DNA from: Embleya scabrispora | GTDB lineage: Bacteria > Actinomycetota > Actinomycetes > Streptomycetales > Streptomycetaceae | Assembly: GCF_002024165.1 (NCBI RefSeq) | Contig: NZ_MWQN01000001.1 | Coordinates: 3,265,365 to 3,329,364 of the forward strand | DNA: 64,000 bases | Reading direction: 5' to 3' | Shown: piece after piece, positions 31,322 through 33,637 of the stretch | How positions within the stretch are numbered: position 1 is the first letter of the stretch | Layout: each line of letters opens with the position of its first letter | Notes under the pieces: generated by a model | The model's database searches: none | Seen by the model: only the letters and a program-made list of their open reading frames with translations | Told to the model about the DNA's origin: nothing | Program-made: the position numbers and the translations under genes

Positions 31322-31768
31322 TCAGGCGGGCACGACGTCGAGGTCGAGCGCGGCCGACACCTCCTGGTGGAGGCGAACCGTGATGCGGTGCGACCCGACG
31401 GTCTTGATCGGAGTACCGATCTCGACGCGCCGCTTGTCGATGTCCGGACCGCCGGCGGCCTTGATGGCCGCCACGACGTCCGCGACGGTGACCGAGCCGA
31501 ACAGGCGGCCCGTGTCGCCGGCGCGCGTCTGGAGCGTCACCTTGAGGCCCGCGAGCCGACCCTTGACCTCGGTGGCCTGGTCGAGCGTGCGGATCTCGCG
31601 AACCTTGCGGGCGCGACGGATGGCCGCCACGTCCTTCTCCCCGCCGCGGCTCCAGCGGATCGCGTAGCCGCGCGGGATGAGGTAGTTGCGGCCGTAGCCG
31701 TCCTTGACCTCGATGATGTCGCCGGGCTCACCGAGACCGGTCACCTCGTGGGTGAGGATGAGCTTCAT
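31322..31768 (-). CDS. rplI: 50S ribosomal protein L9
   Basis: L9 binds 23S rRNA near the L1 arm and limits ribosome slippage. The protein has 148 residues, the family norm. The N-terminal domain starts [34 protein letters not shown], the family signature. A central helix (about 40-75) and the C-terminal domain ([18 protein letters not shown]) follow. It begins 17 bases after the rpsR stop and is the last gene of the operon. Confidence 0.97.
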
Positions 31769-31785
31769 GACAAGATCACCCTTTC

Positions 31786-32022
31786 TCAGCGAGCAGTGCT
31801 GGTGTACGGCAGCAGCGCCATCTCGCGGCTGTTCTTGACGGCCACGGCGACGTCACGCTGGTGCTGCGTGCAGTTACCGGTCACGCGACGAGCGCGGATC
31901 TTGCCACGGTCGGAAATGAACTTCCGCAGCAGGTTGGTGTCCTTGTAGTCCACATAGGAGATCTTCTCCTTGCAGAACACGCAGACCTTCTTCTTAGGCT
32001 TGCGCGCAGGCGCCTTCGCCAT
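31786..32022 (-). CDS. rpsR: 30S ribosomal protein S18 (zinc-binding form)
   Basis: S18 binds 16S rRNA with S6. The protein has 78 residues. The Cys-rich C+ form is seen: VCVFCKEK near residues 13-20 and TGNCTQHQ near 48-55 supply zinc ligands. Streptomycetes often carry a second, Cys-free S18 paralog induced on zinc limitation elsewhere. It lies between ssb and rplI on the same strand. Confidence 0.97.
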
Positions 32023-32091: not shown

Positions 32092-32694
32092 CTAGAAGGG
32101 GGGTTCGTCCGAGTAGCCGCCCGGCGGGGGACCCCAGCCCCCCGCGCCGCCGCCGCCCTGCTGCTGGCCGCCCCCTGCGGGGGTTGCCCACGGGTCGTCG
32201 GCGGGTGCGCCACCGCCCTGCTGGGGACGACCGCCGTAGCCGCCGCCTCCCTGCTGACCGCCGCCCTGCTGACCGCCGTAGCCGCCACCCTGCTGACCGC
32301 CGCCGTAACCACCCTGGCCGCCGCCACCGCGGCTCGCCTTGGTGACCTTGGCGGTCGCCCACTTCAGGGTCGGGCCGATCTCGTCGACCTCGAGCTCCAC
32401 GACGGTGCGCTTCTCGCCCTCTTTGGTCTCGTAGGACCGCTGCTTCAGCCGGCCCTGGACGATGACGCCCGTGCCGCGCTGGAGGGATTCCGCCACGTTC
32501 TCGGCCAGCTGCTTCCAGGCCGAACAGCGGAGGAACAGCGCTTCGCCGTCCTTCCACTCGTTCGTCTGACGGTCGAACGTGCGCGGCGTGGACGCCACGG
32601 TGAAGTTCGCGACGGCGGCACCGCTGGGCGTGAAGCGCAGTTCCGGGTCGGCAGTCAGGTTCCCGACAACAGTGATGATGGTCTCGCCTGCCAT
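32092..32694 (-). CDS. ssb: Single-stranded DNA-binding protein
   Basis: SSB coats single-stranded DNA in replication and repair. It has 200 residues. The OB fold (about 1-112) starts [25 protein letters not shown], with the tryptophan in [18 protein letters not shown] Gly/Gln-rich disordered tail (about 115-195) holds many GGQQGG repeats, and the protein ends in the acidic partner-binding tip SDEPPF. ATG 32694 is the family start; the longer frame upstream is not homologous. It sits between rpsF and rpsR as in most bacteria. Confidence 0.97.
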
Positions 32695-32768: not shown

Positions 32769-33059
32769 CTAGCGCTGGTCGGGACGCAGGACCTTGGTCC
32801 GCAGCACCGACTCGTTGAGGTTCATCTGACGGTCGAGTTCCTTGACGGTCGCGGGCTCCGCGGCCAGGTCCACGACGGCGTAGATGCCCTCGGACTTCTT
32901 CTTGATCTCGTACGAGAGCCGACGACGGCCCCACGTGTCGATCTTCTCGACCTTGCCACCGTCGTTGCGGATGACATTGAGGAACTGCTCGAGCAGCGGC
33001 GTGACCGCGCGCTCTTCGAGGTCCGCGTCGAGGATGACCATGAGTTCGTAGCTACGCAT
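32769..33059 (-). CDS. rpsF: 30S ribosomal protein S6
   Basis: S6 forms a heterodimer with S18 on the 16S platform. It has 96 residues: [19 protein letters not shown] at the start, and the S18-contact end [20 protein letters not shown] 33059 has a near-perfect AGGAGGTG site. It is the first gene of rpsF-ssb-rpsR-rplI. The leader can pair with the Shine-Dalgarno, so autogenous control by S6:S18 is plausible. Confidence 0.97.
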
Positions 33060-33070
33060 GTGAACACCCA

Positions 33071-33114
33071 CCTCCTGTGGACTGGATCGGCCACGGGATC
33101 TCCGTGGCAGGAGG
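33071..33114 (-). promoter_or_regulatory. rpsF leader with an anti-Shine-Dalgarno stem
   Basis: On the minus strand CCTCCTG (bases 33114-33108) is complementary to the rpsF Shine-Dalgarno CAGGAGG (33077-33071). Between them a hairpin forms from GCCACGG (33108-33102) and CCGTGGC (33096-33090), sharing one base with the outer stem. The whole would hide the ribosome-binding site. A possible upstream -10, TACGCT, lies at 33200-33195 on the minus strand. Confidence 0.45.
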
Positions 33115-33307
33115 GCTTGCGTAAATCGCCGCCACGCCAAGGCGGCCCCTTGGGCGAAACGCTCAGGGGGTGCCGAGAGTGCAGCGGACGGTACAGCGTA
33201 CCCGGACCGGCAGACAGTCTCGAAATCCGAGCATGACGCCGGTCACGCCAGGGGATGGATATATGGACAAATTGGTCCGTCCCGCAGTCACTCACCGGAG
33301 GTGTGTG

Positions 33308-33637
33308 ATGGCACATCCGATCCGCCGTACAGCGCCGGCCGCGCCCGCCGCCGGGGCGCACCGGCCCCGGCTGACCCTCAACTCCGACGGCCGTGCCCAT
33401 CCCCGCGAGAACGCGCTGGTCGCCGCCGTCGTGCTGTTCGCGCTGGTGGCCGGCATCTGCGCGTTCTTCAAGGGCATGCACATCCTGGGCGCGTGGACCG
33501 CGCTGGCCGGCGTGGGAACCGGCCTGGTCAGCCAGATGTTCTCGGCGACCACGGAGGAGCGGGTGGTCACCGTGCTCGCGCTCGGCGTCTCGGCCGTCGC
33601 ACTGTTCATGAACATGTTCCACGGCGGCCTGTACTGA
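33308..33637 (+). CDS. Small three-helix membrane protein, unknown function
   Basis: A 109-residue protein. The first 34 residues are basic and Pro/Ala-rich; three hydrophobic segments follow (about 36-54, 58-75 and 85-104), and it ends FMNMFHGGLY. ATG 33308 has a GGAGGTG site. It is divergent from rpsF; TATATG at 33260-33265 followed by a GGAC-N5-GGTCC-like repeat may be its promoter. I do not recognise the family. Confidence 0.65.
   Translation: MAHPIRRTAPAAPAAGAHRPRLTLNSDGRAHPRENALVAAVVLFALVAGICAFFKGMHILGAWTALAGVGTGLVSQMFSATTEERVVTVLALGVSAVALFMNMFHGGLY

Follow-up and report, generated by a model that had tools for sequence, protein, structure and literature searches.

S6:S18 leaders of the rpsF operon have been called very widespread (PMC7247131), and the published hallmark is that a bulge separating a stem from a hairpin carries a CCG (PMC10931766). 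According to the parts of PMC4647458 drawn upon here, the leader of E. coli binds S6:S18 in vitro, and its H1 stem probably holds the Shine-Dalgarno (SD) sequence (Babina et al. 2015, PMC4647458). In that leader, a change of the two conserved cytosines abolished regulation, the disruption of H2 weakened it and compensation nearly restored it, and repression of about fourfold was obtained with S6 and S18 together, not singly (PMC4647458). Moreover, residues K60 and R63 of E. coli S18 are expected to contact these cytosines, which are the counterparts of C719 and C720 of the 16S rRNA, and the mutation of R61 had a modest effect (PMC4647458). Binding of S6:S18 in vitro was also described for the B. 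subtilis example (Fu et al. 2014, Matelska et al. 2013, as cited in PMC4647458), together with a weak binding of S18 alone to this RNA (PMC4647458). Furthermore, an S6:S18 leader candidate of Chlorobi shares with the leader analysed here a likely identical ligand and a similar operon, but that candidate is reported to be unlike the rRNA site (in the sections of PMC7247131 used here), whereas the leader analysed here carries the CCG.

The locus to be compared with these systems lies in a window of Embleya scabrispora DNA, that is, the whole stretch of 64,000 nucleotides that was analysed (GC content 71%). Among plasmid records, the neighbouring FemAB-like protein matched Streptomyces in 22 of 44, including all 12 of those listed in detail (64-66% identity); for Ssb, the 12 listed in detail were all actinobacterial, among at least 5000 records in which other groups were far more frequent. 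The genes follow the order rpsF-ssb-rpsR-rplI on the minus strand, with Pfam agreeing for all four of them and the element placed directly before rpsF (Table 1). Similarly, the reporter-tested E. coli leader stands before rpsF in an operon with rpsR and rplI, its SD is thought to lie in H1 and its CC pair to be read by S18 (PMC4647458), the operon of E. coli differing in having priB where the window has ssb. In the S18 protein of the window, K and R were found aligned with K60 and R63 of E. coli, with N in place of R61. In addition, the 16S stretch GGAGGAACACCGGTGGCGAAGGCGG was present at two places in the genome of the window, and by our own count the CC within it is presumably C719-C720. Close to the N-terminus of the same S18 (31786-32022, minus strand) there is a CVFC, as in zinc-binding S18. 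On the other side of the leader, a small divergent open reading frame (33308-33637, plus strand), membrane-protein-like by eye, has its intergenic region in common with rpsF, and a Pfam search with the longer reading frame 33170-33637 (plus strand) returned no match at E <= 0.001.

Table 1. Features of the rpsF operon and of its leader, in positions of the window.
Feature	Positions	Strand	Evidence or remark
P1 5' strand, anti-SD CCUCCU	33109..33114	-	pairs with 33071-33076
P2 hairpin, 5' arm GCCACGG	33102..33108	-	two-sided changes in 6 of 7 P2 pairs
P2 loop AGAUC	33097..33101	-	varies except for its first base (alignments A1, A2)
P2 hairpin, 3' arm CCGUGGC	33090..33096	-	its last C is the first C of the conserved CCG
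Conserved CCG, putative S18 contact (counterpart of 16S C719-C720)	33088..33090	-	conservation
AGUCC, second invariant bulge element (AG[UAC]CC in relatives)	33079..33083	-	conservation
Shine-Dalgarno AGGAGG, also the P1 3' strand	33071..33076	-	predicted pairing
rpsF (ribosomal protein S6), start ATG 33059-33057	32769..33059	-	PF01250, E 1.8e-31; sole match in the genome
ssb	32092..32694	-	PF00436, E 8.7e-32
rpsR (ribosomal protein S18)	31786..32022	-	PF01084, E 7e-25; sole match in the genome
rplI (ribosomal protein L9)	31322..31768	-	PF03948, E 2.4e-26; PF01281, E 1.9e-19

The pattern CCTCCTGN{15,45}CAGGAGG had a single match in the window, at exactly 33071-33114, where the preliminary description had placed the element, and a mean of 0.01 matches in 100 shuffles of the window, with a match in one of the shuffles. 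The leader RNA, on the minus strand, reads CCUCCUG-CCACGGAGAUCCCGUGG-CCGAUCCAGUCCA-CAGGAGG, and from 33118 to 33068 it can be divided into AAGC-CCUCCU-GCCACGG-AGAUC-CCGUGGC-CGAUCCAGUCCAC-AGGAGG-UGG. The fold predicted for it agreed with the one drawn in the preliminary description. The bulge between P2 and the SD comprises 13 bases, all on the 3' side, and begins with CG; the conserved CCG thus takes its first C from the end of P2 and its other two bases from the start of this bulge.

To assess the conservation of the element, the terms own family, class and phylum are used as taxonomic ranks relative to the genome of the window. The S6 protein was detected in all but two of 150 own-family genomes (148) and in 292 out of 296 genomes of the class. 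Among the matches listed, a total of 155 rpsF loci (L001-L155) were considered. The own family contributed 75 of them and the remaining families of the class 80, and they were picked by their S6 score or for their spread over genera and families before any leader was inspected. The element was present in 154 of these loci, the exception (L122) ending at a contig edge. The strict pattern CCTCCTG..CCG..AGNCC..AGGAGG was matched by 150 of the 155 loci; four of the five that failed it have one P1 base changed with U-G pairing kept, the fifth being L122, and all 154 motif sequences fitted CCG..AGNCC..RGGAGG.

The bulge was 12-13 nt long, and the sequence CGCUGAGUCCAA appeared exactly in 36 of the 75 own-family loci, as in L009 (CCUCCU-GCCACGG-AACGA-CCGUGGC-CGCUGAGUCCAA-AGGAGG), the bulge of the window being one base longer. 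Within it, AG[UAC]CC was as invariant as CCG. In particular, in the 90 rows of alignment A2, each position of CCG was kept in 89 (the odd row is that of L126, which had a wrong anchor and was misplaced in this alignment), and the A, G, C and C of AG[UAC]CC were kept in all 90, with a third base of T in 66, A in 17 and C in 7. In two loci from other families (L132:137-206 and L126:250-335), extra sequence with a small hairpin by eye lies between CCG and AGUCC, and it looks from these insertions as if the bulge tolerated them.

Upstream of the bulge and P2, the anti-SD strand reached 1.93-2.0 bits per position among 129 distinct upstream strings of the class (L126 left out), compared with 0.08-0.27 bits between -20 and -4 before it (17 positions) and 0.42, 0.9 and 1.4 bits at -3 to -1, a contrast that is partly built in because the strings were anchored on the anti-SD strand. 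A hexamer resembling a -10 element (TACCGT, TACGGT, TACTGT or TACGCT) was found at most 60 nt before the motif in 57 of the 75 own-family loci, and 14-22 nt before the aligned stretch in 41 of them. The four loci from the genus of the window had no such hexamer in that interval, and the figures are raw counts; therefore no transcription start is claimed. In the same four loci, a GC-rich stretch (33119-33203 in the window) separates a conserved block, GGGTA-GCTGTACCGTCC, from the leader.

Covariation was evaluated in A2, which was made with plain MAFFT and holds 90 out of 114 distinct sequences: the own family is represented by 14 of its 38, and the remaining 76 were all included. Two-sided changes were found in six of the seven P2 pairs (CG to UA, AU to GC, GC to CG and others). 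The hairpin that the preliminary description had seen between CCTCCTG and CAGGAGG is thus borne out by the predicted fold and by these covarying pairs. A total of 55 cells had two-sided changes, compared with 10.8 +/- 2.6 in shuffles; the covariation score was 0.198 vs. 0.101, with none of 500 shuffles as high; and standard pairs occupied 99.3% of the cells, vs. 94.8% in shuffles and 42-66% when the partners were slid by 1-3 columns, these being values that kinship among the sequences can raise above those of shuffles even in the absence of a structure. The proportion of paired cells was 98.9% for P2 and 99.8% for P1. RNAalifold on the same alignment returned the same two helices and one isolated C36-G62 pair.

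For P1, none of the six pairs had a two-sided change among the 90 distinct sequences: four of them were invariant, and the two that vary presented four U-G pairs and one unpaired cell, which belongs to the misplaced L126. Such an absence is to be expected where the 16S rRNA fixes the SD strand, and P1 therefore rests on conservation and not on covariation. Accordingly, the covariation check proposed in the preliminary description had a positive outcome for the hairpin but not for the SD stem, about which it says little. Likewise, its exact seven-base complement between CCTCCTG and CAGGAGG held for the six pairs of P1, but not for the outermost seventh pair (G33108-C33077), which is possible in only 22 of the 90 distinct relatives. 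The same G33108 has C33090 as its partner in the basal pair of the hairpin, which was kept in all 90 sequences (89 GC and one GU).

A covariance model was built from 38 own-family sequences, including that of the window. In the genome of the window it gave one clear match (E 6.6e-12), which is a member of the model itself; the next one, with an E of 1.3, was taken as noise. With L122 left out, the model matched all 79 loci from the remaining families of the class, most weakly L132 with an E of 0.018. When 296 genomes drawn over the phylum were searched with strict filters (E <= 0.01), 60 were positive, comprising all 26 class members in the draw (nine of them of the own family) and 34 of the 270 genomes of other classes. 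Where the listing gave S6 coordinates (48 of the 60 matches), the leader match always preceded that of S6 by 8-20 nt, with both on the same strand. Furthermore, 24 rpsF loci of the phylum that belong to other classes were inspected for the pattern CCG..AGNCC..GGAGG, which was present in 11 and absent in 13, several of the latter showing by eye related forms, such as CCA or CCT replacing CCG.

The leaders of Bacillus and related genera were also compared, taking the best 80 loci out of 446, several of them nearly identical. All 80 leaders contained CCG..AGNCC..GGAGG. At E <= 10, the family model yielded 61 matches, one each in 61 of the 80 loci, all directly before rpsF and on the right strand (13 below an E of 0.1, the best 0.021), and it missed the other 19 and the E. 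coli leader. The scores are individually weak; what is not weak is their agreement in position, as none of the matches in the 266 kb searched lies anywhere but directly before rpsF. As in the window, the leaders of the B. subtilis group stand directly before rpsF, hold the SD inside P1 and have a P2 closed by G-C. For instance, the leader of B. inaquosorum (L157) reads CUCCUU-GCCCA-UUA-UGGGC-CGCUUAGUCCAA-AAGGAG, and its bulge CGCUUAGUCCAA has the same length as the own-family CGCUGAGUCCAA and 11 of 12 bases identical. In contrast, its P1 is CUCCUU/AAGGAG and that of the window CCUCCU/AGGAGG, and P2 has 4-9 bp of varied sequence in the 80 Bacillus-type loci, compared with usually 7 bp of a CCACGG-like sequence in the group of the window.

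The Rfam model of the rpsF leader (RF02893, RpsF_leader) scored 110 bits on the E. coli leader, with a gathering threshold of 37 bits, and had no match at E <= 10 in the window or in its whole genome. At E <= 5, it found nothing in one Bacillus, one Anoxybacillus and seven loci of the class of the window. Among 14 control genomes, nine, including B. subtilis and two archaea, had a match at E <= 10, and one exceeded the cut-off. Moreover, no relevant family was returned by an Rfam search of the leader region, nor by one of 121 bases under the most permissive filter settings. The element of the window is therefore outside RF02893 as modelled, yet it has the published features of S6:S18 leaders. 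The preliminary description had hesitated to equate it with the classic motif, a doubt that finds no support in view of the CCG found after the hairpin, in the bulge before the SD stem, and of the invariant AG[UAC]CC.

Overall, the element is very probably (with a probability of about 0.9) an S6:S18 leader of the widespread kind that precedes rpsF, in the form shared with Bacillus, in which an excess of the dimer would shut the SD and lower the translation of the operon. With the structure, its CCG and AGNCC, the gene order, the likeness to Bacillus and the S18 contact residues in place, we infer protein binding, repression and coupling from E. coli and B. subtilis. The mRNA would fold into a 6-bp P1 that holds the SD of rpsF, topped by P2 and with a bulge of 12-13 nt on the 3' side, which would begin with the CG of CCG and carry AGUCC towards its far end. 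With S6 and S18 in excess over the 16S rRNA, the S6:S18 dimer would bind the junction of bulge and P2, where S18 may read the two cytosines of CCG as it does with C719-C720 of the 16S rRNA. This binding would clamp P1 shut and keep the 30S subunit from the SD, with a decrease in rpsF translation, and the translation of ssb, rpsR and rplI would be lowered by coupling. The preliminary description had proposed a leader structure holding the SD before rpsF-ssb-rpsR-rplI, with translational feedback on this operon; such a structure is conserved in the loci of the class, and S6:S18 translational feedback, with the binding taken by analogy, explains it best.

By themselves, neither the fold nor the bare pair of 7-mers is remarkable, as chance complementarity in a GC-rich genome would have it: taken alone, the sequence has an ordinary folding energy (z -1.35, with 18 of 200 shuffles folding at least as well), and the complementary 7-mer pair with a gap of 20-45 occurs at four places in the 10.96-Mb genome, vs. 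three for the reversed control pattern. What takes the element beyond chance is its presence in 154 of 155 rpsF loci, and the chance explanation, with practically no probability left, is refuted by the compensatory changes in P2 and by the 79 of 79 other-family loci found with the model. A plain hairpin sequestering the SD, with low basal translation or the action of a thermosensor and no protein ligand, would agree with the free RNA of the window, in which the SD is mostly paired (predicted mean pairing probability of 0.96; 0.86 with CCUCCU). Nevertheless, it leaves unexplained the conservation of CCG and AGNCC in the 154 class and 80 Bacillus-type leaders, as well as the covarying P2, since simple occlusion needs P1 only, and it is considered improbable. 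Over 153 leaders, the energy model gave a median pairing of the SD hexamer of 0.79 (minimum 0.20, above 0.9 in 18% of them) and of 0.53 with the in-register CCTCCT, so that in many species part of the unbound RNA would be open according to the prediction, and a lock under the control of a protein would have something to act on.

An action of the leader on transcription, through attenuation or Rho access and with the same S6:S18 ligand, is regarded as similarly improbable. For one and the same ribosomal protein site, the mechanism can differ between species (PMC4647458, in the parts used here), but the SD is itself half of P1, the start codon of rpsF lies 11 nt beyond it and no U-tract was seen by eye after P2, all of which speak against it. 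Within the S6:S18 reading, it is conceivable, though on balance doubtful, that these leaders form two structural classes. The one shared with Bacillus would be distinguished by the second invariant AG[UAC]CC (found in the 154 class leaders, the 80 Bacillus-type ones and part of those from other classes), which might act as a second contact or tertiary lock making the occlusion of the SD strictly S6:S18-dependent, unlike the E. coli form.

The leader kind is already known, and what is added here is its near-universal presence in the class loci examined, the AG[UAC]CC held in common with Bacillus and the blind spot of Rfam. A search by title or abstract found no publication on an actinobacterial rpsF leader, and Matelska 2013 and Fu 2014 may list Actinobacteria; rpsF is not named in the main text, as far as covered here, of three Streptomyces transcript-annotation papers that used Rfam (PMC8079986, PMC8780764, PMC6742748). 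A 2021 paper on mycobacterial rpsO states, in the part used here, that there is almost no information on ribosomal protein feedback for phyla such as Actinobacteria (PMC8470358). There is thus an annotation gap, the Rfam model finding the E. coli leader and missing the form of the window, and the leader is a conserved test case for ribosomal protein feedback in Actinobacteria, for which nature already supplies a set of hairpin variants with compensated changes.
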